Source of the DNA: Pirellulaceae bacterium
GTDB taxonomy: Bacteria > Planctomycetota > Planctomycetia > Pirellulales > Pirellulaceae
Reading direction: 5' to 3'
Length of the DNA stretch: 64,000 bases
Assembly (NCBI GenBank): GCA_026004795.1
Contig: BPJV01000002.1
Location: forward strand, 62,001-126,000
The notes under the pieces are model-generated. The model was not told the DNA's origin, did no database searches, and was given only the letters and a program-made list of their open reading frames with translations. This document shows, piece after piece, positions 35,213 to 50,242 of this stretch. How positions within the stretch are numbered: the stretch's first letter is position 1; each line of letters opens with the position of its first letter. The position numbers and the translations under genes are program-made.

Positions 35213-35256
35213 CTCAGTTTGACAATTCATTTCTCCATCGTAGCTTGCGCCGCCTC

Positions 35257-38200
35257 ATGCTCATCGCATTGGAACTGGTCGGATTCAAAAGCTTCGCGGA
35301 CAAGACGCGATTCGAATTTCCCGATGGGATTACCGTCATTGTTGGGCCCAATGGATCGGGAAAATCGAATGTGGTCGATGCGATCAAATGGGTGCTGGGC
35401 GCGCAGAGTGCCAAGTCGCTGCGGGGCGGCGAGATGCTCGATGTCATCTTTAAGGGATCGGCGTCTAGTGGGCGCAAGGCTGCCAACAGTGCCGAAGCCA
35501 CCTTGGTGTTCGACAACTCCAAGCAACAACTCCCCATCGACGCCCCCCAGGTCGAGGTCACGCGTCGCGTCTACCGCAGCGGCGAAGGGGAGTACTTGAT
35601 CAATGGTCAAGCGTGTCGACTCAAGGATATCAAGAACCTTTTTCGAGGGACGGGAGTCGGCGTCGATGCGTACAGCTTGATCGAGCAGGGCAAGGTTGAC
35701 CGGATGCTGCAAGCCTCGCCCAAAGACCGGCGGCTGATCTTCGAAGAGGCGGCAGGAATCAGTCGCTTCAATGCCAAAAAGGCTGAAGCGCTTCGTCGAC
35801 TCCAACGAGTCGAGCAAAACTTGACCCGGTTGAAAGACATCGTCGAGGAGGTGCATACGCGATTGCGGACCCTGCAATCTCAGGCATCGAAGGCGCAGCG
35901 TTACCGGGAATCGACGGCCCGTTTGGAAGAACTGCGTCTGCGGCTGGGCCATACGGAACTGGTCGCTCATGAGTCGCGTGTGGCCAAATGCAGCGATGAA
36001 GTCGATCGAATACAGCAGGATCTCGCCCAACGGCAGACGGAACTACAGCAAGCTGTCGATGCGGCCCGCGCAGCGGAAATGAATCTGCACCAGGTCGCCG
36101 GAGCGTGCCAGCGGGTGGAGAACCGTTTGCAAGAGGTGATGCAACGTATTGCCGTCGCCCGCAATCAACAACACACCTGCCGACTCCGCCTCGACGAGAC
36201 GCTGGAAGAGCGCCGGCGGCTCGGCCAGCGGTTGATCGTCCTGCGGGCGCGTGCCGAGCAGGTAGAGGCCGATTATCGCCAGGCACAACAAGCGTTGCTG
36301 CATGTCGAGCAAACGCATCGTCAATGCCTCGCCCGCCAACGCGAGTCTCAGGAGCGAACGGAAAAGCTGCGCAGCGCTATCGAGCGGAATCAACGTCGCT
36401 ACGAATCACTGCGTCAAGAACATATCCAGTGCTTGCAGCAGACCTCGACGGTACAAGCCGAATTGACGAAGACGCAAAGCGTCGTGCAAGAGCTGGATCA
36501 ATTGATCAACCACACGGAGCAGCGGTTGGCGGAAAACCGCACTGCCGAGGAAGAAGCTCGGCACACGGCGGAACAGGCGGCTCGTGCCTTACAAGAAGTG
36601 CACCAACGAAGCCAAAAAACGAACACCGACCTGACAGCCGCACGTAACGACCTGGAAGAGTATCGCGACCGAGCTGCGATGTTCAATCAGCGCGCTGCAA
36701 CGCTCAAGGAACGTCTATCGGCTACCACTGAGCGATTGGAGATTCTCGAGGAACTGGAGCGGCATCACGAGGGAGTCGATGCCGGCGCTCGCCGTTTGCT
36801 GGAACTGGCCCGTGATGCGGACGATCCCGTGTTTCGTTCGATTCGCGGCTTGGTAGCCGAACAGTTCGACGTCGACGTCGCCTTCGCTGCTTTGGTCGAC
36901 ACCGCGCTGGGGGACCGCGCCAACGCGTTGGTCGTTGACGGTCCGGAACTGGTTCATCACCTGCGTTCGGGCAAGATCGAGTTGCCCGGGCGGTTGACCA
37001 TATTGCAACTGGAAGGGCTTCCCACCAAGCGATTCGGCCAGCGCATCCAGCTCGACGGAGTCCCCGGCGTTATCGGCCGTGCCGACCAGTTGGTGCGACA
37101 CGACGATGCCGTTACCCCTTTGATCCAGTACCTGTTGGGAACAACATGGCTGGTCGAGTCGCTCGATGTGGCGCTGGAGCTAAGTCATTTTCGGGGAGCC
37201 GGTCTACGGTTCGTCACCGCCGCCTGTGAGCTGCTCGAGTCCGATGGCACGCTAACCTTCGGAGCCATTCAGTCTGCCAGCGGATTGGTGTCGCGTCGAA
37301 GCGAAATCCAAATTGCCCGCAGCGAGATCGCCGACTTGAAGTCCCAGCTGCAGAGTGTTCACGGTGAGGTGGCGCGAATCTCTAGCCACATCGAAACCTT
37401 ATCGCCGCGCGCCGCGAAACTCGAACAGGAAGCCAGGCAGTTGGCCCAAGAACTGGCCCGCCAGCAAGCGGCAGCACAGAACGCGGTGGCCCGACTCGAT
37501 GCCCTCGAATCCCAGGGCAAGGAGCTCGAAGAAAAACTTGCCCATGCCCGTCAACGGCGTGCCTCCTTGTTGCCCACCATCCAGGAAGGCAAGCAGCACA
37601 TCGCTCAGCTTCAACGTCGTGTGCAGGAGATCGAGCACGAGATCATCGAACTGAAACGAGAGCAGGAGAAGCAAGCGGAGGAACTGGACCGCAGCGCCAG
37701 CGAGGAAACCGCCAGGCAAGTCGATCTGGCCCGCGCCGAACAGATGCTCGCCACGTCGAAGAGCATGCTGCAACAGCAAGAGTCCGGTCGCCAAGAACGT
37801 TTGACGGCGATCGAGGAAGCAACCGCCGAACTGGGACGTCTGGTCGAGCGCGCTGGACAGACAGAACTTAAGCTGCTGCAGTTGGAATCGCAGTTGGCCG
37901 AAGACTTTGCCGTTCGCGAAGCTGCCGAGAAGGAACTGGAGGAGCTGGCCAGCGAGGCTGCCGAACTCCGCCGCACCCGTAGCGAAACGGCACGCCGGGC
38001 GGACAAGTTGAAGCAGACGGTCGACAGCCTCCGTCAACGCCAACAGGCCCGCCAGGGAGAACTAGAGCGTTCGCGGGAAGCCATCGAGCAACTGCTGACG
38101 CGTTATCGCGAGGATTATCAGTTGACGGTCGAGCAGATTCGGGCTGCCGAGTGCATTGACGACCCACATCAGCGAGAGCAACTGACCGCCGAAGCAGCTC

Positions 38201-38859
38201 AATTGCGTCACGATGTCGCCACGGTTGGCGAAATCAACATGACGGCGCTCAACGAGTTGGATGAGCTTCAGGCGCGCTACGACCATTTGCACGGCCAATA
38301 TGAGGATCTCGTCGCAGCCAAGGAGTCGTTGCAAAGAATAATTCACAAGATCAACCAGGACTCCCGCCGCATGTTCCTGGAAACCTTGGAAGTCATTCGC
38401 CAAAATTTCCAGCAATTGTATCGCAAGTCGTTTGGCGGCGGGCATGCCGATATCGTCTTGGAGGATGGAGAAGATCCCTTGGAATGTGGCATCGATATCA
38501 TCGCCACTCCGCCCGGAAAGACGGCGTTGTCCAATTCGCTGCTCAGCGGTGGCGAGAAAGCGCTCACGGCGGTGGCCCTCCTCCTTGCCATCTTTCAATA
38601 CCGGCCCAGCCCCTTCTGCGTTCTCGATGAAGTCGATGCGCCGTTCGACGAAGCCAACATCGGCCGGTTTGTCAACGTGCTGCACGAGTTTTTGGATTGG
38701 ACGAAATTCATCATCGTCACCCACTCGAAAAAGACGATGACCGCGGCAACCACTCTGTACGGTGTTACCATGCAGGAGTCGGGTGTCAGCAAACAGGTCT
38801 CGGTTCGTTTTGAAGACGTCAATGACAAAGGCGAAATCGTCTCCAAGAAAGCGGCGTAG
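35257..38859 (+). CDS. smc: Chromosome segregation protein SMC
   Basis: A 1,200-residue SMC. The ATG at 35257 gives the usual opening LIALELVGFKSFADKT; a TTG 12 bases earlier is possible. Walker A is VGPNGSGKSNVVDAIKWVLG, then the first long coiled coil (Gln/Glu/Arg-rich, about 170-500), the hinge (about 510-680, with VFRSIRGLVAEQFDVD and PGVIGRADQLV), the second coiled coil (about 690-1010), and the C-terminal ATPase half with signature LLSGGEKALTAVALL and Walker B FCVLDEVDAPFDEAN. It entraps and compacts DNA together with ScpA and ScpB, which are not encoded here. Confidence 0.97.
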   Translation: MLIALELVGFKSFADKTRFEFPDGITVIVGPNGSGKSNVVDAIKWVLGAQSAKSLRGGEMLDVIFKGSASSGRKAANSAEATLVFDNSKQQLPIDAPQVEVTRRVYRSGEGEYLINGQACRLKDIKNLFRGTGVGVDAYSLIEQGKVDRMLQASPKDRRLIFEEAAGISRFNAKKAEALRRLQRVEQNLTRLKDIVEEVHTRLRTLQSQASKAQRYRESTARLEELRLRLGHTELVAHESRVAKCSDEVDRIQQDLAQRQTELQQAVDAARAAEMNLHQVAGACQRVENRLQEVMQRIAVARNQQHTCRLRLDETLEERRRLGQRLIVLRARAEQVEADYRQAQQALLHVEQTHRQCLARQRESQERTEKLRSAIERNQRRYESLRQEHIQCLQQTSTVQAELTKTQSVVQELDQLINHTEQRLAENRTAEEEARHTAEQAARALQEVHQRSQKTNTDLTAARNDLEEYRDRAAMFNQRAATLKERLSATTERLEILEELERHHEGVDAGARRLLELARDADDPVFRSIRGLVAEQFDVDVAFAALVDTALGDRANALVVDGPELVHHLRSGKIELPGRLTILQLEGLPTKRFGQRIQLDGVPGVIGRADQLVRHDDAVTPLIQYLLGTTWLVESLDVALELSHFRGAGLRFVTAACELLESDGTLTFGAIQSASGLVSRRSEIQIARSEIADLKSQLQSVHGEVARISSHIETLSPRAAKLEQEARQLAQELARQQAAAQNAVARLDALESQGKELEEKLAHARQRRASLLPTIQEGKQHIAQLQRRVQEIEHEIIELKREQEKQAEELDRSASEETARQVDLARAEQMLATSKSMLQQQESGRQERLTAIEEATAELGRLVERAGQTELKLLQLESQLAEDFAVREAAEKELEELASEAAELRRTRSETARRADKLKQTVDSLRQRQQARQGELERSREAIEQLLTRYREDYQLTVEQIRAAECIDDPHQREQLTAEAAQLRHDVATVGEINMTALNELDELQARYDHLHGQYEDLVAAKESLQRIIHKINQDSRRMFLETLEVIRQNFQQLYRKSFGGGHADIVLEDGEDPLECGIDIIATPPGKTALSNSLLSGGEKALTAVALLLAIFQYRPSPFCVLDEVDAPFDEANIGRFVNVLHEFLDWTKFIIVTHSKKTMTAATTLYGVTMQESGVSKQVSVRFEDVNDKGEIVSKKAA

Positions 38860-39107
38860 CCGTACCATCCCTCGACGGCCTGCCGCTCGAGCAAATACAC
38901 TGCAACCACGGATTATCGCAGCCTTCTCGCCCTCCGTTGCGGGGCCACGCTAGCGGGGCCCCTGCCGATGCGGATACTAATTGGCGAAGGATGCATTCTG
39001 GCAAAGCATCCCCAGCGAGCCGATCACCTAAGCGCACGGCGCGGTAACAATCATGAACTCGAGAGTTTTTGGCAAGGGGGCCTGGAGCCGAGAAAGGTGT
39101 GGGTACA

Positions 39108-40625
39108 GTGCAACACGATGCTGCCATATTGGGGACCGGTTTTTCCGGCAGTCTACTGGGGTGGATTTTGGCGGAATGCGGTTGGCGCGTGGTGTTGATC
39201 GATCGCGACGAGCATCCTCGATTCGCTATCGGTGAGTCGTCCACTCCGCTAGCGGACCTGTTGATCGAAAAGTTGGCCGACGAATATGGTTTGAAAGAAC
39301 TACGGCCACTATCACGCTGGGGCTCTTGGCAACAACAGATTCCCCATATTCGCGGCGGAAAAAAACGGGGATTCAGCTATTTCGAACATCGCCCAGGCGA
39401 GCCGTTTTCCGACACGCCAGATCATCGGCACAGCTTGTTGGTCGCGGCCAGTCCTGATGACGAACGCAGCGACACTCATTGGCTTCGCGCCGACGTCGAT
39501 GCGTGGTTCTACCTGCACGCATGCCAAGCCGGTTGTACCGGGTTTTTGAACACCGAAGTGCTCAACGTGCGCCGGGCAGCATCTGGCTGGGACGTGGTGT
39601 ACCGGCCGATCGGAGGCGAAGTCGACACCTTTCAATGCCGGGAAGTGATCGATGCCACCGGCTCGGAAGAAGTACTGGTCAAGTTTCTTGGCCTGAATGA
39701 TTTCACTGATCGCTTGCGGACCCGCACGGGGGCGTTGTTCGGCCATTTTCGTGGCATCGGGAGCATGGAGCAGTGGATGCGCGACCGCGGCCTACCGCTG
39801 GAGCCGTTGGTTTTTCCCCCGGACGAGTCAGCTCAGCACCATCTGTTGCAAAGTGGATGGATGTGGATGCTGCGATTCGTAGATGGCACGACGAGCGTCG
39901 GCATCGTCCAGACTCAAGATAATTGGCGACCATTTGGTGCCCTAGACTGCAAAGGCGCTCGACAAGACGCGTGGCAGTTGTTCCTGGCTCGCTACCCGAC
40001 GTTGTACGATTTGATGCGCGAGGCGGAACTCGTCGCCCCTACGGTCGCCGGTACCCCGCAATTGGCGTGGATGCCGCGCATCGGGCGGCGAGTGGGACCG
40101 GCCGCCGGCAAGGGTTGGTGCCTGCTGCCCAGTACGGCAGGCATCATCGATCCGCTGCACAGCACGGGAATCGCGCACGCCCTTTCCGGCGTCCGCCGCG
40201 TGGCCTCGTTCCTCACCGGCGGTTCATTGGCTCAGCGGGCCGAGTACTCCCGGGCGGTGGATGCGGAACTGGATTGGATCGACCGCCTGGTCTCGGCTGC
40301 CTACGCCGCGATGCCTTACGGGCTGCCCCTGTTCGCTGCCGCCACCAGCTTCTATCTGGTTGCCGCTATCCAGAGCGAACGCAGCTTGCAAGCGACCGGC
40401 ACGTTGACCTCCGGCTTTCTGCAATGGGAAGATCAAGCGCTGCAGCAGCAACTCGAATGGTTCGCACAACGTGTCGCCGCCCTCCCCGCTCCTGCTGAAG
40501 TTCCCGGCCGCGAAGTCGAAGCGCTGATCGACGAGGTACGTCAGCGTCTCGCGCCCTGGAATGACGTTGGCTTGCTCGATCCTACTCTCGGCAATCGGAT
40601 CGCACGCACCGCCGCCGATAAGTGA
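39108..40625 (+). CDS. FAD-dependent halogenase-like oxidoreductase
   Basis: The GTG at 39108 has GAAAGG about ten bases upstream and gives the natural start QHDAAILGTGFSGSLL. GTGFSG is the FAD-binding GxGxxG and VVLIDRDEHPRFAIGESSTP is the extension typical of the geranylgeranyl-reductase/flavin halogenase group. GWMWMLRF near residue 250 corresponds to the WxWxI region of flavin-dependent halogenases, though the final Ile is replaced. LLPSTAGIIDPLHSTGIAHALSG is the second FAD contact. The 505-residue protein could be a halogenase or a monooxygenase/reductase; the substrate is unknown. No separate flavin reductase is seen nearby. Confidence 0.8.
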   Translation: MQHDAAILGTGFSGSLLGWILAECGWRVVLIDRDEHPRFAIGESSTPLADLLIEKLADEYGLKELRPLSRWGSWQQQIPHIRGGKKRGFSYFEHRPGEPFSDTPDHRHSLLVAASPDDERSDTHWLRADVDAWFYLHACQAGCTGFLNTEVLNVRRAASGWDVVYRPIGGEVDTFQCREVIDATGSEEVLVKFLGLNDFTDRLRTRTGALFGHFRGIGSMEQWMRDRGLPLEPLVFPPDESAQHHLLQSGWMWMLRFVDGTTSVGIVQTQDNWRPFGALDCKGARQDAWQLFLARYPTLYDLMREAELVAPTVAGTPQLAWMPRIGRRVGPAAGKGWCLLPSTAGIIDPLHSTGIAHALSGVRRVASFLTGGSLAQRAEYSRAVDAELDWIDRLVSAAYAAMPYGLPLFAAATSFYLVAAIQSERSLQATGTLTSGFLQWEDQALQQQLEWFAQRVAALPAPAEVPGREVEALIDEVRQRLAPWNDVGLLDPTLGNRIARTAADK

Positions 40626-40931
40626 TCCTTGCGGTTGTAGTCGCTTCGCCCCGTCCTGTTGGAAACCAACCTGGCCTGCCGGATCAGGACGCGATCGATG
40701 GCCGCTGGGCAGCGATGACCAGCAGCGATGCCGCACGCCTGGAGACGATCGGTCATTGCAGCGGTGCAGCAGGCGAGGTATCACTAAACGCAGGCGGCTC
40801 TTGGCGGGCAACCATTTCTACCTGCCGCCATTCTCGTCTGAGTTTGCCCACACTGCTGTTGGTGATTCTTGCCGAAAATGCCCGCCGCGCAGCAGGCACC
40901 GACGGTACTCAAGTCATGGGAACTAGTCGTG
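40626..40931. other. Intergenic region upstream of the AddB-AddA fusion gene
   Basis: About 305 bases without an independent gene. The fusion frame stays open upstream to a TTG at 40869, but the ATG at 40932 is the better start. No clear promoter is visible. Confidence 0.35.
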
Positions 40932-43900
40932 ATGTCCACTACGAACCGCCCCCAACCGCGTAAGGCTGATGCTCCCTCACGCAAGTTCTTGGGATTGAAA
41001 CAACCCATCTTGTGGACGGTTGTTGATGAGTTGATGCATCGCTACCAAGATGGCGCTGGGTGGGACATGCGCGGCGTGGTCGTCGTGCTGCCCACCCAAG
41101 CGGCTTGTCGGCGGCTGCGCGAGCTATTGGCTGGGCGGGCCAGCGAACACGGTGGTGCCCTGCTTCCTCCCCACATTATCACTGTCGGCAGCCTTCCCGA
41201 GCGACTCTACGTACCCCGTTTTCCGTTCGCCAACGGACTGGTGCAAGAGCTGGCGTGGATGGACGCTTTGCGATCGTTGGGCCCGACTGAATTGCAATTG
41301 TTGGCTCCATCGTTGACTCGCAATTATGGGGTCGCTCAGTGGCAGGAGTTCGCCCGCACCTTGGCCCGCTTGCATCGGGATCTGGCCAGCGACCGCATGG
41401 ATTTCTCCCACGTCCTCCGCGTTCTGGGGCGAAACCATCCCGAGTATCCCCGATGGGAGGTGCTGGCGCAGGTTCAACAAGCCTACCTGCATCGATTGGA
41501 TGAACTGGAGTTATGGGACATTCAAACGGCGCGGATGCGCGCCTTGGATTTTGACGAGGTGCACACCGACGAACGATTTCATATCGTCGCCTGTGTCGAT
41601 ATGAATCGTACCCAGCGGGGATTCGTAGCGGCGGCGGCCGATGCCGTCGAAATCTGGATTGCTGCCGAAGAAAAGGACGCCTCGCTCTTCGACGAACTTG
41701 GTTGTGTGGTAGCCGAGCAGTGGACGGGTGTCGAATTGACGATCGACGATGGCGAACTTCTGGTCGGCAATTCCCCCATCGACCAAGCGGAGCTTGCCGT
41801 CGCCTGTGTACAGCGAGTGAGCGAGGGCTTCACCAACCAACAGATCACCCTGGGTGTCCCCGATGCCAGCCTCGTGCCGCACCTCAAACGGCAACTTCAT
41901 CGCCAGGGCCTGCCGGCCCGATACGCTGGGGGAATCCCCCTCCGCGCCACCGAACCCGGACAACTGTTGGTGACGGTCGCCGATTACCTGCGCAGCGATG
42001 GCGAATACGAGACGTTTGCTCGACTGGTGCGTCATCCGGCAGTAGAGCAGATGTTGACTCGCGGTGAGGATCCCCTGCCGAGCGATTACCTGGTGCATCT
42101 CGATAGCTATTACACCCAAACATTACCGCCGCGGGCCGAGCCCCCGAAGAACATGGAGTTGCATGGGGCGAAGGTCGTTGAACAGCTCATCGAGCGCGTC
42201 GAACATTGGCTGGCACCGTTGAAACAAGATCGCTTGCCAGTGGATGGATGGATCGAACCGATCAAGCGGATGTTGCAGGCTGCCTATGATCGTCGCACCA
42301 GCGATCCAGACGATCCACACGATGCTCCATGCCTGGAGGCCACTGTGGTTCTGGCCACTGCGATCGACGAGTTGGCCAACCTGCCGCCGGCGGCTGCACC
42401 ACAGTGGACATCCGTGGAGACGCTCGATTGGTTATTGCAGGAGATCGGCGAACAAGGGGTTCCCGAAGCCCGAAATCCCCAGGCATTGGAAATGGTGGGA
42501 TGGCTGGAGCTTCCCCTGGACGATGCTCCAGTGGCGATAATTGCCGGCATGCATGACGGGGTGGTTCCCCACAGCATCAATGCGGATGCTTTTCTACCGA
42601 ATAGCTTGCGACGCCAGTTGGGCATGGAGGACAACGACCGGCGGTTGGCCAGAGATCTGTACGTCTTGCGCACTGTACTGCAAACCCGTCGGTGGGTGCG
42701 ACTGATCGCCGGGAAGGTGGACGAGCAGGGAGATCCGCTCGTCCCCAGCCGCCTGTTGCTGGCTTGTCCCCTAGAGCAACTTCCGGCGCGCATTGTTCAT
42801 TTGACCGAAGCGGACCATGTGGATCGCTTGCCGCTGGCCGCCCCACGTGCCGATCACCAGGCAACTGCCGCGCGGCGACCGCTGACGATCCCTCGACCAG
42901 AGCCGGATGCGCGCCTCGACGCGATCAGTGTGACCGCCTTTCGCAGTTACCTTGCCTGCCCGTACCGTTTCTATCTCCGCTATGTGAAACGACTTCGCGA
43001 GGTGTCCGACGAAGCCTTGGAGCTGGATGCCGGGCAGTTCGGGGATGTGGTGCACTGGACGCTCGAGGAATTCGGTCGTCAGCTTCCTACCTGTCGAGAT
43101 GTTCGACAGATCGAAGAGTTTCTGCTTGCCGGGTTGCGTCAGCAGGTCAAAAACCTCTACGGTGATGCCCCCAGCCCGGGAGTGGTATTGCAAATGGCGC
43201 AAGCCGAACAACGTCTGCGCTGGTTTGCTCAACTTCAGGCCGAGCGAGCCAGCGAGGGATGGGAAATCCATCATGTGGAATTGGGGGTGGGTCAGGAGGA
43301 TGCTTTGTGGATCGGCGAAGGTGAGGAACGGCTGAAATTGGTGGGCCGGATCGACCGCATCGACTACCACCCAAAAACTGGCAGATGGGCGATTTGGGAT
43401 TACAAGACATCCGGTAGCGGCAAGAGGCCCGAGGAGACGCATCGCCAGGCAGGCGAGTGGATCGACCTCCAATTGCCTCTCTATCGCTGGTTGGCCGAGC
43501 ACCGCGGGGTCGATCTCGATCGACTGGAGAGTGTCGGGTACATCATCCTGGGGAAAGCGAAGCAGGATTGTTCGTTCGCCGCCGCTCGCTTTACCGATGC
43601 CGATTTCCAGGAGGCCGACGCCCTCGCGACACAAATCGCTGCGGCTGTTGCTCGTGGCGAGTTCTGGCCTCGCGATACCGATGGCCCGCGTGAAGTCGAG
43701 TTCGATGACTTTCCGCGAGTATGTCAGGTGGGAGTGCGCAGGTTCGATCGACCGCCGTCGCCGCGGCGGCAGCATGTTACGCGGGAAACCGAACTGGGAC
43801 GACCTGCGGCCGAGGTAGTGCAGGAAGCGCGCGATCGCTTGCGCGCCCAACCGGAAAGGCAACGTCCACCCTTGCCGCCCAAACTGATTCGGGCCTCGGC

Positions 43901-46900
43901 CGGGACCGGAAAAACCTTCCAGTTGTCCAACCGGCTGCTCAGCATCCTGCTCAGCGGCCAGGATGTCGATGGCATTTTGGCCACCACTTTCACACGCAAA
44001 GCGGCTGGGGAGATCGCCGCGCGCGTCCTCGAGCGGTTGGCCACCGCTTGCCTGGATGAAACGATGCGCGACGAACTGCAGCGGCATGTCGAAGGGGGCG
44101 ATGTGTCTGCCGCCAACTGCTTGGTGACCTTGAAGCGGCTCGCCTGCTCCCTCCATCGCTTGCGCATCGCCACCTTGGATGCTTACTTTGGCCAGATCGG
44201 CCAGGCGATGCAATTCGAACTGGCGCTGCCGGCCGGCTGGGAGATTCTCGACCCCGCCCAGCAGCGTCCCTTTGAGCTGGAAGCGGTGCGTTTGCTGGTG
44301 CACACGTATGGGCAGGAGAAGCTGGAGACGCTTCTCCAATTGATGCGCAAAGGGGAAACCGGCACGCGAATCGCCGATGACTTGCACCAGGTGGTTCAGG
44401 AAGGGTTCGGCTTGTGGCGGTGCACGACGCGCGCGGCGTGGGACCAACTACCCCTGCGCTCACCACCGAGCGACGAGGAGTTCGATGCTGCCCTGCAAAC
44501 GATCGAGGCGGTTCCCATCGGCCACAAGACTGGGGATCGCAAGCGGCTGGAACTCATCACTCTGGCTCATCTCGGTGAGTGGGAAACGCTTTTGGAAGCC
44601 ACCTTGCTGGTCAACGCCTTGCAAGAGGAACCGAAGTATCAGCGGAAGGCGCTGCCGCCCGAACTGGTCTTGGCATTGCGGGTTCTCTGGAAACGCGCGG
44701 TCTATGAGGAACTGGTCGCATTGAAAAGGCAGACGTTGGCCACCGCAGATTTCCTGCAAGCGTTCGATACGGTTTATCAGCGCTTGACGCACCTGCATCG
44801 GCGTCTGTCATTCGCCGACGTGACCGATGTCCTCGGTCAATGGACTCGCCGGTTCAGGGGGAGCCAAAATCTACCAGGTAACGCATCTGCCGATGAGCAA
44901 GTAACCCGGGCCCTGGTGGAACATCGACTCGATTGCAGCATCCACCACCTACTGCTGGATGAGTTCCAAGACACATCGCCGGTTCAGTGGCAAATACTCC
45001 AGCCGCTCGCTCAGGAGTGTGCACGTCAGGATGGACGAAGATCACTTTTCTGCGTCGGAGACACCAAGCAGGCCATCTACGGATGGCGCGGAGGGGTGGC
45101 GGAAGTGTTCGATGCCGTGAAACGAGCGGTCCCCGCCTGCACCGAGATTTCCTTGGATCGCAGCTATCGCTCCAGCCAGATCGTGCTCGACGTTGTCAAT
45201 GAGGTATTCCGCCGCTTGCCAGAACATACGAACTACCTCCAATGCGACGCAGCCGTCCACAAGTTTGCCACCGCATTTCCACAACACGTTTCCGAAAGGA
45301 ATGACCTCACCGGATACGTGTGCATCACATCGCTGACGCGGGAACAAGGAGAGAAGAAGGCGGAGAGGACGGAAAAACTGCTACACGCTGCAGCTCAGCA
45401 AATTGCCGATTTGGTCCGCGCGACCTCAGCCAGCATCGGCGTGCTGCTTCGTAAGAACGAAGAAGTGGACCACATGATCGCTGCGCTGCGTGCCTTGGGA
45501 GTAGAAGCCAGTCATGAAGGGGGCAGCCCACTGTCCGATGCGGCGGCGGTCCAATGGGTCCAGTCGGTGTTGCATGTGGCAGATCATCCCGGTGACAAGA
45601 CGTGCGCGTTCCATGTCTTCTCTTCCTCACTGGCCGATCAATTGCCAGATCCTGTCCGCGGCAGTGCCCGCAGACTTTCCCAGTGGATACGCGATCTTAC
45701 CGCCCGCAGGGGCTTCGTTGGCAGCATCGAGGCTCTGGTCGACCTCATCCAACCGCACGTCGATTGGTGGGACGCCTTTCGCCTGGAACAACTCTGCCAA
45801 ATGGCGATCAAGTATGCCCCCTACTTCGATGGTCGATTGAGGAAATTCGAGAAGTGGATTGACGAGCAGGATGTGGCACTTCCGACCGATGCGCAAGTCA
45901 AAGTGATGACGGTGCACAAGAGCAAAGGCTTGGAGTTCGACGCTGTCGTGTTGCCGTTGGCTACGTCTGACCTGGCGTCCCAGGGACAAGAGAAGCTGAT
46001 GCCTCGCTTTGACGATCCCTGCGAACCGCCGGATGGCGTGTTGCGATACGTCAGAAAGAGTCTCCGTTCGATGCTTCCCCCGCGGTGGCAGCAGGCATTC
46101 GCCACACATATGGAACGAAAGGTCATCGAATCGTTGTGCGTATGGTATGTGGCCATGACGCGAGCCCGTCGCGCCCTGTATGTGCTCGCGCCCCAGCAGA
46201 ACAGTCTTGAGGCGAGCTTTGCCGGCATCCTCCATTCGCTCTTTCCTGCTGCGGATTCCAGCCAGGACGGCGATCGAAGAATACTTGTCGAACATGGTCA
46301 GCGCCATTGGTTCGCGGACTTACCGCCATCCTCAGAGAACGCCACCATCGCTGGAACGCAGAGAACGAAGAAGGCTTCCTCGGACGCCAGTCCGGCATCG
46401 GAGAATGCACTTCCATCCGCAGAGCGTCCTGCGGCGCGATTCATGCTGCGCAACGTGCCGCTGCGCAAGCCCTCGCACGTCGCGGCCAGCAACCAACAGC
46501 ACGGGCGGATGGGACGTGCGTTCGCCCACAGCGATCCAGCAGCACGGGCGGTCGGTACGTTGCTCCACGCCCTGCTGGCCGACGTGCAGTGGATCGACGA
46601 CTACCACCGCGATCGGCAGCGGGCCATGACGACTTTACAGCGGTGTCTGGCCAGTGACGGTGTCTTGCCCGTAGAACTCGACAAGGTCATTGATACTTTC
46701 CACGAGTTGGTCGATCAACCGCGGCTACGCGGTCTCCTTTCTCGCCAGCGGTACGACGACGACAACCGGCCGCTCGATGCCGTCGAGGTCTTCTGCGAAC
46801 GACCGTTGTTGCAATTGGCCGGGGAGGAACTGCTGGTAGGTACCATCGACCGCCTGGTATTGTTACGCCGCGATGGTAAAGCCGTAGGCGCAGAAGTAAT

Positions 46901-47087
46901 CGATTTTAAAACCGATGCCGTGCCCCCCACGAAAAAGCGGCAACGATGGTTGACCGACATGAAGAACCGTTATCAGCAGCAACTAGAGACTTATGCTGCG
47001 GCGATTGGCGCAACCCATGGCTTGTCACGCCACCAGGTCCGATGCACGCTCATGCTATTGCTCGCAGATGAAGTAATCGAATTCTGA
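40932..47087 (+). CDS. AddB-AddA-like fused helicase-nuclease
   Basis: One uninterrupted frame of 2,051 residues joins two proteins that are normally separate. Residues 1 to about 960 resemble AddB: VVVVLPTQAACRRLRELL, a helicase-like core without Walker A, then SVTAFRSYLACPYRFYLRYV near 665-680 and a RecB-type nuclease GRIDRIDYHPKTGRWAIWDYKTS near 805-828. Residues from about 985 are AddA/UvrD-like: RASAGTGKTFQLSNR (Walker A), ATTFTRKAAGEIAARV, LLLDEFQDTSPVQW (motif II) near 1345, VGDTKQAIYGWRGG, MTVHKSKGLEFDAVVLPL, YVAMTRARRALYVLAP near 1745, and a second nuclease GTIDRLVLLRRDGKAVGAEVIDFKTD near 1975. It should process double-strand breaks. Only one Cys follows the first nuclease, so the AddB iron-sulfur cluster seems lost. 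Confidence 0.88.
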   Translation: MSTTNRPQPRKADAPSRKFLGLKQPILWTVVDELMHRYQDGAGWDMRGVVVVLPTQAACRRLRELLAGRASEHGGALLPPHIITVGSLPERLYVPRFPFANGLVQELAWMDALRSLGPTELQLLAPSLTRNYGVAQWQEFARTLARLHRDLASDRMDFSHVLRVLGRNHPEYPRWEVLAQVQQAYLHRLDELELWDIQTARMRALDFDEVHTDERFHIVACVDMNRTQRGFVAAAADAVEIWIAAEEKDASLFDELGCVVAEQWTGVELTIDDGELLVGNSPIDQAELAVACVQRVSEGFTNQQITLGVPDASLVPHLKRQLHRQGLPARYAGGIPLRATEPGQLLVTVADYLRSDGEYETFARLVRHPAVEQMLTRGEDPLPSDYLVHLDSYYTQTLPPRAEPPKNMELHGAKVVEQLIERVEHWLAPLKQDRLPVDGWIEPIKRMLQAAYDRRTSDPDDPHDAPCLEATVVLATAIDELANLPPAAAPQWTSVETLDWLLQEIGEQGVPEARNPQALEMVGWLELPLDDAPVAIIAGMHDGVVPHSINADAFLPNSLRRQLGMEDNDRRLARDLYVLRTVLQTRRWVRLIAGKVDEQGDPLVPSRLLLACPLEQLPARIVHLTEADHVDRLPLAAPRADHQATAARRPLTIPRPEPDARLDAISVTAFRSYLACPYRFYLRYVKRLREVSDEALELDAGQFGDVVHWTLEEFGRQLPTCRDVRQIEEFLLAGLRQQVKNLYGDAPSPGVVLQMAQAEQRLRWFAQLQAERASEGWEIHHVELGVGQEDALWIGEGEERLKLVGRIDRIDYHPKTGRWAIWDYKTSGSGKRPEETHRQAGEWIDLQLPLYRWLAEHRGVDLDRLESVGYIILGKAKQDCSFAAARFTDADFQEADALATQIAAAVARGEFWPRDTDGPREVEFDDFPRVCQVGVRRFDRPPSPRRQHVTRETELGRPAAEVVQEARDRLRAQPERQRPPLPPKLIRASAGTGKTFQLSNRLLSILLSGQDVDGILATTFTRKAAGEIAARVLERLATACLDETMRDELQRHVEGGDVSAANCLVTLKRLACSLHRLRIATLDAYFGQIGQAMQFELALPAGWEILDPAQQRPFELEAVRLLVHTYGQEKLETLLQLMRKGETGTRIADDLHQVVQEGFGLWRCTTRAAWDQLPLRSPPSDEEFDAALQTIEAVPIGHKTGDRKRLELITLAHLGEWETLLEATLLVNALQEEPKYQRKALPPELVLALRVLWKRAVYEELVALKRQTLATADFLQAFDTVYQRLTHLHRRLSFADVTDVLGQWTRRFRGSQNLPGNASADEQVTRALVEHRLDCSIHHLLLDEFQDTSPVQWQILQPLAQECARQDGRRSLFCVGDTKQAIYGWRGGVAEVFDAVKRAVPACTEISLDRSYRSSQIVLDVVNEVFRRLPEHTNYLQCDAAVHKFATAFPQHVSERNDLTGYVCITSLTREQGEKKAERTEKLLHAAAQQIADLVRATSASIGVLLRKNEEVDHMIAALRALGVEASHEGGSPLSDAAAVQWVQSVLHVADHPGDKTCAFHVFSSSLADQLPDPVRGSARRLSQWIRDLTARRGFVGSIEALVDLIQPHVDWWDAFRLEQLCQMAIKYAPYFDGRLRKFEKWIDEQDVALPTDAQVKVMTVHKSKGLEFDAVVLPLATSDLASQGQEKLMPRFDDPCEPPDGVLRYVRKSLRSMLPPRWQQAFATHMERKVIESLCVWYVAMTRARRALYVLAPQQNSLEASFAGILHSLFPAADSSQDGDRRILVEHGQRHWFADLPPSSENATIAGTQRTKKASSDASPASENALPSAERPAARFMLRNVPLRKPSHVAASNQQHGRMGRAFAHSDPAARAVGTLLHALLADVQWIDDYHRDRQRAMTTLQRCLASDGVLPVELDKVIDTFHELVDQPRLRGLLSRQRYDDDNRPLDAVEVFCERPLLQLAGEELLVGTIDRLVLLRRDGKAVGAEVIDFKTDAVPPTKKRQRWLTDMKNRYQQQLETYAAAIGATHGLSRHQVRCTLMLLLADEVIEF

Positions 47088-47209: not shown

Positions 47210-47575
47210 ATGTCGTTCTCTGTCACAGAAATTGCTGAGGGAAAGATCATTCGTGTCGAATTGCAGGGAAAGCTCACGAAAGAGGCCTACGAGATGTTCG
47301 TACCGCTGACCGAGGAGCGAATCAAGCAGTTCGGCAAGGTGCGCATGCTGGTAGTCTTGCGCGATTTTCACGGATGGGATGCGGGGGCCCTGTGGGAGGA
47401 CATCAAGTTCGACCTGAAGCACTTCAACCACATCGAACGGTTGGCGATTGTGGGGGAATCGAAATGGGAAAAGGGCATGGCCGTGTTCTGCCGCGTGTTT
47501 ACGACGGCGAAGATCAAGTATTTCGACATCAATGAACTGGAGGAAGCGGAGCAGTGGATTCGAGAAGGGTTGTAA
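47210..47575 (+). CDS. SpoIIAA-like (STAS/SEC14-type) protein
   Basis: A 121-residue protein with AGGAG before its ATG. The alternating strands and helices (IIRVELQGKLTKEAYEMFVPLTEERI, RMLVVLRDFHGW, FNHIERLAIVGESKWEKGM, IKYFDINELEEAEQWI) match the SpoIIAA-like family, a CRAL/TRIO- or STAS-like fold of unknown function. No phosphorylatable Ser motif of true anti-sigma antagonists is evident. It follows the fusion gene by about 120 bases, not obviously in its operon. Confidence 0.85.
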   Translation: MSFSVTEIAEGKIIRVELQGKLTKEAYEMFVPLTEERIKQFGKVRMLVVLRDFHGWDAGALWEDIKFDLKHFNHIERLAIVGESKWEKGMAVFCRVFTTAKIKYFDINELEEAEQWIREGL

Positions 47576-47719
47576 AAGGCTTTTCCGGATCGCTCGCTGC
47601 AATCCTCGATCGACGACCGTCGGTGGCGCAGACGTTTGCGGTTCTCGATGTGGCGATGGCTGGCCTGCGAGAGTTGTTGATGTCGCTTGCCATGGTGAGC
47701 GTCGATTCGCTGCACGCCC

Positions 47720-48334
47720 TCAAGGTTGCATCGTGCGATATGGGGAGTAGCTGTAGTACTTCGGACAACGGTCGAGACGGATATGCAGCCAAGGGACTCC
47801 CGCCCCAGCGGTGTTGACCCACACCGGCTGATCCCGCACTAGACGCAGTGCTTCCCGCGCCACATGCTGCCACAGTGCAACAATTTGTCGTTCGGGTGCC
47901 GTCCGCAAGAAGGCGAGCAGGTGCGCGTAGTCGATGTTCTTTGTCGTTGGGCCTGCCGCGTGGCGACCTGGCACGGGACAAGGCACGACCAGCAAGGCGT
48001 CTTTACCTAGTGAAGGGAACGCGGCAGTTTGCGCTGGCGTAAAATAAGGAGCGAACGCGTCAGGGGCTGCAGGCTTCCGCAATCGAGGGCGCGGTACGAT
48101 AACGCACTCAAAACGCCGTTGGTAGCGTGAGGGGCCGAGTACCGCAACTTCCCAACGCGCGGCCGCATAGGGCAGCTCGATCAGGGCGTGGGTCAGGTCC
48201 CGACTGAATTGCCGCTCCGTGGCCAAACCGGTGAAGAACTCCTGCATCGACAACATGCGTCCCCGCGCATCGCCCCAATGGAGCTTTATCCCTTTCCCTC
48301 CAACCAGCGGCGTAAGATGCGGATGCCATGTCAT
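47720..48334 (-). CDS. Conserved protein of unknown function (DUF6940-like)
   Basis: A 204-residue protein without signal peptide. I recognise the pattern of a conserved uncharacterised family: ARWEVAVLGPSRYQRRFECVIV, KDALLVVPCPVP, YAHLLAFLRTAPERQIVALW, and the strong C-terminal block PVWVNTAGAGVPWLHIRLD with CPKYYSYSPYR. The conserved aromatic and basic residues at the end suggest a binding site. Function unknown. It lies 14 bases after the stop of the upstream minus-strand gene and is likely translated with it. Confidence 0.7.
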   Translation of the reverse strand: MTWHPHLTPLVGGKGIKLHWGDARGRMLSMQEFFTGLATERQFSRDLTHALIELPYAAARWEVAVLGPSRYQRRFECVIVPRPRLRKPAAPDAFAPYFTPAQTAAFPSLGKDALLVVPCPVPGRHAAGPTTKNIDYAHLLAFLRTAPERQIVALWQHVAREALRLVRDQPVWVNTAGAGVPWLHIRLDRCPKYYSYSPYRTMQP

Positions 48335-48348
48335 AGTGGCTACTGGCG

Positions 48349-48726
48349 CTACGGGTCAGAGTCCGTCGACGGCTGGATCAAGCAGTGGAAACCAATGCAC
48401 GGTGTTTCTGATTGTTCGCATTCCTCTTCCGCTTGGCGAAGCAACGCGTTGATCTCTGCCAAATGTTTGGGGCTGAGCGCGGCGGACACCAAATGCTGTT
48501 GGCCATCAGGACTGACCAAGACCGTGGTCAATACGGCGACCGTATTGGGATGTTGCAGAGCTGCCAGAACGTGCTCTCCAATTTGTTGCGGTGCCCCTTT
48601 GATCGTCGTAATGAACTGAGTGACCTGATCGTCCCCGGCCACCGTACCGTTCGCCGGTGACGGCGCGTCGGGCGAATCGGCATTGGCACGAAGCTTTCGG
48701 GGCGATGGTTGAGGACTATTTTCCAT
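48349..48726 (-). CDS. Hypothetical protein
   Basis: A 125-residue protein. After a Pro/Ser/Asp-rich first 30 residues comes a compact region with QVTQFITTIKGAPQQIGEHVLAALQHPNTVAVLTTVLVSPDGQQHLVSAALSPKHLAEINALLRQAEEE, which looks like a folded alpha/beta unit with an ending helix. I do not recognise the family. It is the first gene of a two-gene minus-strand unit with the DUF6940-like gene. Confidence 0.55.
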   Translation of the reverse strand: MENSPQPSPRKLRANADSPDAPSPANGTVAGDDQVTQFITTIKGAPQQIGEHVLAALQHPNTVAVLTTVLVSPDGQQHLVSAALSPKHLAEINALLRQAEEECEQSETPCIGFHCLIQPSTDSDP

Positions 48727-49054
48727 TGGTCGGTTCGCCTTGTAACGAGTCGTGGGCCAGTGAAACGCATCACCACGTAGCAGACGAGGAAAACGACCAT
48801 ACCAGCACGCTATGGGATCCTGCCTGCTACGTTTACAATGTGGTCATTTCGCTGTCCCGCGCACACCCCAAAACCGCGGCCGATGGTGAACACCGATACG
48901 CACTGCCTGGTGTGGTGGGCGGCGACATCCCGGTAGGAATCCCCTGAACAACTTACGACTTATCGTAGCTTGCCGGACGATCACCTCCGACGCTTCTCGG
49001 CGCGATGAGGCCTATCTGCAAGTTTATACGAAACGCGAAGTAAAGAGGAACAAC
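48727..49054. other. Divergent intergenic region, promoter expected
   Basis: About 330 bases between divergent genes. TACAAT around 48834 could serve as a -10 box toward the aminotransferase, but no matching -35 is seen. AGAGGA sits just before the ATG at 49055. No gene is supported here. Confidence 0.35.
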
Positions 49055-50242
49055 ATGAGCACATCGAAGCGAGCAACGGATCATCCGCCTCACCGTGTAT
49101 TACTAGGCCCTGGCCCCAGCGACGTCGATCCACGTGTTCTGCGTGCCTTGGCGGCTCCTACGCTAGGACACCTCGATCCGGAGTACCTGAGCATTATGGA
49201 TGAGACCAGGGAGTTGATGCGTCAGGTCTTTCAGACGCGCAACGAAATGACGATCGCCGTGTCGGGGACCGGATCGGCGGGGATGGAGGCCTGCATTTGC
49301 AACTTGGTGGAGCCGGGCGACGAGGTCCTCATCGGCGTCAACGGCGTGTTCGGAGGCCGCATGAAGGACGTCGCCGAGCGGTATGGTGCCGTGGTGCACA
49401 CTGTAGAAGCGGAATGGGGCAAGGCGATCGATCCACAACAGGTGGCCGACGCGTTCGCTAAGCACCCTCACATCAGGGCGGTCGGTATCGTCCACGCGGA
49501 GACAAGCACCGGGGAGCATCAACCTGTGGAGGAGATCGCTCATCTGGTGCGCCAGCACGACGCGTTGTTGATCGTCGACGCGGTGACCAGTCTCGGCGGA
49601 TTGCCCGTGCAGATTGATCAATGGGGCATCGATGCTTGCTACAGTGGCACGCAGAAATGCTTGAGTTGCCCGCCTGGTTTAGCGCCAGTGACGTTCTCCT
49701 CCCGTGCTTTAGAACGCATCGATGCGCGAAAGACCAAAGTGACGAGCTGGTATCTCGACGTCACCATGTTGCGCAATTATTGGGGCGAGCAGCGAGTCTA
49801 CCACCACACTGCCCCGATCAATATGACCTACGCCCTGCGCGAAGCATTGCGGATGGTCGTCGAAGAGGGGATCGAACAGCGCATCGCTCGGCATCGTCGC
49901 CACCATTTGATGCTTAGAGCCGGTTTGGAGGCCCTGGGATTGGAGTACATTCCCGAACATCCATTGACGACCCTCAATGCCGTCCGTGTTCCTGAAGGTG
50001 TGGACGATGCCGTCGTTCGTGGCCGGTTGTTGAACGAGTTCGGCATTGAGATCGGTGCCGGACTGGGCCCGTTCAAGGGTCAAGCCTGGCGTATCGGGTT
50101 GATGGGGTCCAGTTCCACGCCACGTAACGTCTTGCTGGTACTCGGTGCCTTGGAGTTTCTGCTACGCGACATCGGCTACACCGGTGGCAGTGGTTCCGCA
50201 ATCGAGGCAGCGAGAGAGGTCGAACTCAGCGCCGCGGGGTGA
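49055..50242 (+). CDS. Alanine/serine--glyoxylate aminotransferase
   Basis: A 395-residue class V pyridoxal-phosphate aminotransferase. Key features: [14 protein letters not shown] at the start, [22 protein letters not shown] with the cofactor phosphate loop, [29 protein letters not shown] with the Asp that binds the pyridine N, and [15 protein letters not shown] with the Schiff-base Lys. It converts glyoxylate to glycine using alanine or serine. The glycolate oxidase gene follows after 26 bases, so the pair forms a glycolate-to-glycine route. AGAGGA precedes the ATG. Donor specificity cannot be told by eye. Confidence 0.92.

Follow-up and report, generated by a model that had tools for sequence, protein, structure and literature searches.

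AddAB trims broken DNA ends ahead of repair. Here we describe a gene of a Pirellulaceae bacterium that probably encodes both halves of such an enzyme, AddB and then AddA, in one reading frame. It lies in a stretch of 64,000 nucleotides (GenBank assembly GCA_026004795.1, contig BPJV01000002.1, positions 62,001 to 126,000 of the forward strand), hereafter the window, whose first letter is position 1 in all coordinates below. A preliminary description made from the letters and open reading frames of the window had proposed a fused AddB-AddA protein, and the present analysis follows up that proposal.

The gene and its parts

The locus comprises the following features, all on the + strand.

40932..47087, +, addB-addA fusion gene; ATG start, 2,051 codons plus stop
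40932..42923, +, AddB helicase-like part; residues 1-664, the limit at 42923 being our own reading
42924..43682, +, AddB PD-(D/E)xK nuclease; Pfam stretch 665-917, with H708, D808, D823-Y-K825, Q847 and Y851
43737..43892, +, linker; residues 936-987, 52 amino acids
43809..43844, +, predicted helix in the linker; residues 960-971, mean predicted local distance difference test score (pLDDT) of 92 for block 960-969
43863..45125, +, AddA UvrD-type helicase N-terminal region; residues 978-1398, with LLLDEFQDT and VGDTKQAIYGWRGG
43893..43916, +, AddA Walker A motif ASAGTGKT; residues 988-995
45879..46187, +, AddA helicase C-terminal motifs V and VI; residues 1650-1752
46527..47021, +, AddA C-terminal PD-(D/E)xK nuclease; residues ~1866-2030, with H1879, D1973, D1991-F-K1993, Q2017 and Y2021

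Translation of the window DNA bears out the single open frame of the preliminary description, which runs from the ATG at 40932 to the stop ending at 47087 with zero stops across the linker interval 43690-43900. An in-frame TTG at 40869, upstream of the ATG, is an alternative start that would give a protein of 2,072 amino acids. The order proposed for the halves, AddB first and AddA second, is recovered by hidden Markov model searches, in which both halves match their expected families at scores below the curated cut-offs considered further on. Among the NCBIfam models, addB_alphas has its best stretch at residues 288-861 (1.4e-32) and RecB-like helicase/AddA models span 986-1763 (best 1.5e-71); Pfam places UvrD-helicase at 978-1398 (2.8e-35) and the best stretch of UvrD_C at 1650-1752 (2.6e-15). 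PDDEXK_1 falls on two stretches of the protein, the best being 665-917, with 8.5e-42 for the protein as a whole. Because the C-terminal region searched alone also matches PDDEXK_1 (residues ~1866-2030, 2e-10), the claim of a nuclease in each half is supported for both, and the motif residues of each are seen in the alignment. Models that match nearly the whole length of the 2,051-codon frame lead us to reject a chance origin on sequence grounds. The gene is single-copy in its own genome, in which no second AddA-like protein was found; the remaining matches are short and lie in frames of 657-808 amino acids.

The two halves

For the AddB half, a single-sequence search of the PDB gave no match and a profile search gave six weak matches, none of them AddB, so a fold search was needed. 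In it, AddB chains of the B. subtilis type (4cei_B, E 2.2e-26, TMq 0.63) take the first five places for the structure model of this half (pLDDT 90.6), ahead of AdnA (7.0e-20) and RecC. The addB_alphas model recognizes every AddB half aligned (53 of 53, from fused and unfused genes alike), and the nuclease residues H708, D808, D823, K825, Q847 and Y851 are present in 29 of 29 aligned fused rows. The motif-I position of the helicase-like part reads VVVLPTQAACRRL and holds no Walker A, nor does any of the 29 fused rows have one there; ATPase function is consequently not expected of this part.

The superfamily 1A (SF1A) helicase motifs are confined to the AddA half. A model of residues 560-1759 (pLDDT 80.2) has RecB and AddA as its top folds (8b1t_B, 5.9e-24; 4cei_A, 2.6e-23), and the Walker A motif is intact in 28 of the 29 fused rows.

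Recurrence of the fusion

The fused frame is found in three genera of the family, namely the window's own (g1, 15 genomes) and two more (g11 with 27 genomes and g59 with two). In 41 of these 44 genomes the junction is crossed by a single frame or by a match free of stops; three are unreadable there, and two genes are seen in none. The single-contig genomes G100 and G127 are among those with the fusion. Within g1 the junction lies in a single frame in 13 of 15 genomes, and the frame recurs stop-free in other genus genomes at 41-49% amino-acid identity. Nine of the 13 proteins are full-length (2,063-2,139 amino acids), that of G023 has 1,850 and those of G109, G102 and G107 are cut by contig ends; ten g1 genomes and G107 were retranslated from DNA. 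The two genomes that cannot be read at the junction are G110, where the halves lie at the ends of two contigs, and G101, to which we return. The preliminary description had allowed that close relatives might carry two genes at this place, and none of the 15 genomes does. In g11 the fused frame occurs in 26 of 27 genomes, 23 of them with frames longer than 1,400 amino acids; AddB runs into AddA in one frame up to the contig edge in G138, G136 and G143, and the contig of G144 is cut ahead of the junction. Both g59 genomes are fused.

AddB itself was found in 225 of the 241 genomes of the family (66 of 68 genera), and among the family matches listed AddB frames above 1,400 amino acids are restricted to the three fused genera. 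Matches from 146 genomes of the order, a sample that includes some members of the family, and from 294 genomes of the phylum contain no frame of that length, and the matches listed for other sampled families include no AddB-AddA fusion. In a scan of named records limited to the best 80 of 154 relatives, 26 were fused, 40 had both halves in separate frames and 14 had one half only. One of the 40, L228, has a contig as long as that of G129 (34,081), in which the junction is fused and AddA is frameshifted further on; one of the 14, L183, has a contig as long as that of G143 (9,624), which continues into AddA. The fused records, labelled Pirellula, Pirellulaceae, Planctomycetales, Planctomycetaceae or Planctomycetota, are mostly metagenome assemblies.

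The matches listed for another class (248 genomes) include two frames above 1,400 amino acids, neither of them AddB-AddA. That of G829 is a UvrD helicase with one nuclease. That of G861 (L252, 2513-7219, +) carries an AddB, with ADDB_N and nuclease, in frame with a RelA/SpoT synthetase region; an addA-like frame begins directly after it, and the arrangement is possibly an AddB-(p)ppGpp synthetase fusion.

Unfused relatives and the origin of the fusion

In more distant genera of the family addB is followed by addA as a separate gene, usually in a different frame, which marks the fusion as derived. Of 38 unfused loci, 35 of which belong to the window's family, 24 have an addA start, ATG or GTG, that overlaps the stop of addB by exactly 4 nucleotides, and such an overlap places the two genes in different frames. 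Elsewhere the pair is co-framed, with a single stop between the halves in G050 (L040) and G054 (L036) and two stops in L173; judged by their frames, these pairs are close to fusion. Several apparent fusions were set aside. Frames of 1,964, 2,058 and 2,080 amino acids in G055, G050 and G054 resolve on direct translation into separate halves, those of G055 being 54 nucleotides apart, and AddA frames of 1,623 and 1,703 amino acids at L159 and L191 overlap addB in another frame. Taken together, the sequence comparisons indicate that the gene fusion is real, conserved and derived.

A tree of the concatenated halves (33 rows, 1,718 columns) supports g1 (100/100) and g11+g59 (100/100), places unfused G025 as sister of g11+g59 (99/96) and unites the fused genera with G025 in one clade (100/99). 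Two state changes are required under either scenario, whether two fusions or one fusion followed by a split. Forcing all fused rows into one clade costs 11.2 log-likelihood units (approximately unbiased test, p 0.0146), a value that bears on whether G025 falls inside the fused group and not on gain against loss, and that was obtained with a constraint group set by fused state after quick trees had been seen. The linkers differ between the two groups. In g1 they are 50-55 amino acids long and lead into Walker A with LPPxLIR or a similar sequence; in g11 and g59 they have 60-116 amino acids and WFxxxMI in that place; no sequence common to the two sets is visible in the alignment. From the tree and the unlike linkers, two independent fusions are probably to be favoured. 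A single fusion at the base of the group formed by g1, G025, g59 and g11, split again in the lineage of G025, would agree with the shared clade and call for the same number of changes; linkers so different in sequence, length and ending speak against it, and we consider it unlikely, though with a real chance of being right. The fusion extends beyond what the preliminary description had claimed, to three genera and probably two events.

Weighing a single-chain AddAB

We regard the window gene as most probably encoding a single-chain AddAB helicase-nuclease, with a probability of roughly 0.87 from the sequence evidence. Several observations, in the halves as well as in the linker, weigh against it, although none of them contradicts a fused protein of the AddAB type. 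The NCBIfam equivalog cut-offs are not reached by the AddB half (112.8 against 486.5 bits) or by the AddA half (225.5 against 860.75 bits), and Pfam ADDB_N is absent from the window protein up to E 1, although it does match the AddB of another planctomycete, G861. The NCBIfam AddB cut-off is passed by none of the 248 genomes of the other planctomycete class, which indicates that this model reaches Planctomycetota poorly. In B. subtilis AddB, four cysteines hold an Fe-S cluster; at the aligned places looked at, the window protein has just C676 and C931, and all 17 g11 rows have T or V at position 931. Some fused relatives are irregular in their AddA half, and the copies in G111 and G129, perhaps also that in G101, look damaged. 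Walker A of G111 (L079) reads ASAGTGTT, a change of K to T that is either a sequence error or an inactive motor. In the AddA nuclease of G106, D1991 is replaced by E and Y2021 by H. In G129 (L247) the junction is intact and AddA continues in another frame, through a frameshift or a sequence error. The fused protein of G023 (L035), from the window's own genus, ends after helicase motif VI, and its AddA nuclease is absent from the ~1.8 kb downstream read in three frames. Motifs V, VI and the AddA nuclease are unread in G098, where the contig ends. In G101 (L256) the AddB match stops mid-contig at query residue 524 and gives way to unmatched sequence, and the AddA part starts at the edge of a different contig; either the gene is broken or the contig is misjoined.

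The linker bears on the reading in several ways. Its length is 50-55 amino acids in 10 of 10 aligned genus members. In five close pairs with unsaturated synonymous divergence (dS), the ratio of nonsynonymous to synonymous substitution (dN/dS) is 0.22, 0.15, 0.38, 0.35 and 0.24 in the linker, with 0.03-0.08 in AddB and 0.03-0.10 in AddA of the same pairs; two of the five share a species, five further pairs had saturated or undefined dS, and the pairs come exclusively from g11 and g59, the g1 pairs aligned being too distant. By this measure the linkers of g11 and g59 evolve as coding sequence. Ten-residue pLDDT means along the window linker range from 54 to 92 (24-row alignment), with residues 960-971 in the best block, and a sequence pattern recurs near these residues across g1 linkers; the model is suggestive of an ordered helix there.

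The strongest alternative for the product itself is that the one frame yields two proteins, through internal initiation in the linker or cleavage of the chain, and that the enzyme is a two-chain AddAB after all. The window linker has in-frame GTG and TTG codons at 25, 18 and 7 codons ahead of Walker A. In G104 an ATG stands 10 codons before that motif, and G023, G103 and G100 have a linker GTG or TTG with a 4-base Shine-Dalgarno match, so that some separately started AddA is possible; the long, variable linkers of g11 could also be cleavable. Set against this, the ATG or GTG of the 4-nucleotide overlap with which most unfused loci begin addA has little counterpart in the fused genus. ATG is absent from the window linker and from 7 of 10 genus linkers, in two more it lies merely 3-4 codons before Walker A, and none of the candidate GTG/TTG starts of the window linker has a Shine-Dalgarno match. 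We therefore hold two products to be improbable.

Far less probable still is a defence or accessory UvrD-nuclease system in place of a housekeeping AddAB. The window protein is matched by 41 PADLOC models, the best being RTasHel (1.6e-26) and GajB (7e-25). For the 25 of them listed, the best stretches are confined to the helicase part of AddA; the matches to AddB and AddA, by model and by fold, span both halves instead; AddB is moreover present in most of the family, and the four neighbours scanned are not defence genes. An assembly or base-calling error that merged two genes has next to no chance of being right, even though most named records are metagenome assemblies and the genes adjoin in unfused relatives: a local error, including the stop or frameshift hidden in the linker that the preliminary description had feared, is ruled out because the frame recurs stop-free in separate assemblies of the genus, and conservation of frame across three genera, of linker length within the genus and of coding evolution in the g11 and g59 linkers leads us to reject an artefact more generally.

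Proposed function

For a single-chain AddAB, we envisage that an ancestral addB-addA pair came into a shared frame without an intervening stop. By analogy with AddAB biochemistry, the AddA motor would unwind the broken DNA end, the AddA nuclease would cut the 3' strand and the AddB nuclease the 5' strand (an assignment made in a passage of PMC4824097), and the AddB helicase-like part, having no Walker A, would serve as a scaffold and perhaps as a Chi sensor. The covalent link presumably stands in for translational coupling and holds the halves together; we infer that their stoichiometry would thereby be fixed at 1:1. ATP-dependent unwinding, two-strand cutting and the Chi response would be as in AddAB, and we expect nothing unusual of the basic function.

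The fusion might do more than tether. With an ordered helix joining the AddB nuclease to the AddA motor, the linker could alter regulation, the AddA nuclease could become dispensable, as in G023, and the single chain could resect the 5' strand only, leaving 3' overhangs without a Chi switch; we think this rather unlikely. The two nucleases of the preliminary description stand for the window protein. As a universal trait of fused forms they do not, since fused G023 lacks the AddA nuclease.

Neighbouring genes and related observations

The fusion gene is flanked at 35245-40625 and 47210-50242 of the window by genes for an SMC protein, a flavoprotein, a SpoIIAA-like protein and a class-V aminotransferase. 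The flavoprotein has weak tryptophan-halogenase similarity, and no link to the fusion was seen in the scan of these four neighbours.

In an unfused clade (L039, L068-L073; G055, G066, G088, G045, G087, G006 and G013) the AddA frames are 868-963 amino acids long. The AddA nuclease seems to be lost there, as judged from matches that barely exceed the helicase part; a passage of PMC4224334 reports comparable loss in some Wolbachia strains. Protein P0004 of G059 (L038) has an in-frame insert within the AddB half, at residues ~286-326, that has about 40 matches, in differing frames, in the genomes of G059 and G098 and is thus a dispersed repeat. It is akin to the palindromic elements inserted in Wolbachia addA and addB, as described in part of PMC4224334.

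Comparison with known systems

AdnAB has a Walker A in both of its subunits. The window protein resembles it in having a helicase-like region and a nuclease in each half, and its AddB half also matches AdnA by fold; this half nevertheless fits AddB better and has no Walker A. The window protein resembles RecBCD in its AddA helicase region, the fold of which matches both RecB and AddA. Its AddB half, however, retains nuclease motifs, whereas the nuclease-like domain of RecC is given as inactivated in a passage of PMC1185551, and the RecC family PF04257 is absent from the window's own genome (among 14 controls, it was found in E. coli). UvrD-Cas4-like fusions, as part of PMC5704561 presents them, also join an SF1 helicase and a RecB-type nuclease in one chain, and G829 has one; they combine a single helicase with a single nuclease, not AddB with AddA.

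The nearest counterparts are the unfused AddB and AddA of the family (e.g., G025 and G008), which have the same addB-addA order and an AddB identity to the window of 31-40% (unfused rows of alignment A3), but which are encoded by two genes, mostly in different frames and often with the 4-nucleotide overlap. AddAB/RexAB (B. subtilis; 3u4q, 4cei) shares the fold of the AddB half, the SF1A helicase of AddA and a PD-(D/E)xK nuclease in each half. The window form differs in its single frame, predicted to give one polypeptide and not two, in having no four-cysteine set in its AddB half and in scoring far below the curated cut-offs. No published description of an AddB-AddA fusion was found in the open-access literature under the terms used. 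In the literature searched AddAB consists of two proteins only, and a natural single-chain form would depart from that and show that the order AddB, then AddA, can work. It would provide single-molecule and structural studies with a ready-made construct of 1:1 composition and would let one ask, as an experiment of nature, whether the halves of AddAB need to be able to separate, and the G023 protein, with the AddB nuclease but not that of AddA, helps to ask which of the two nucleases is required.

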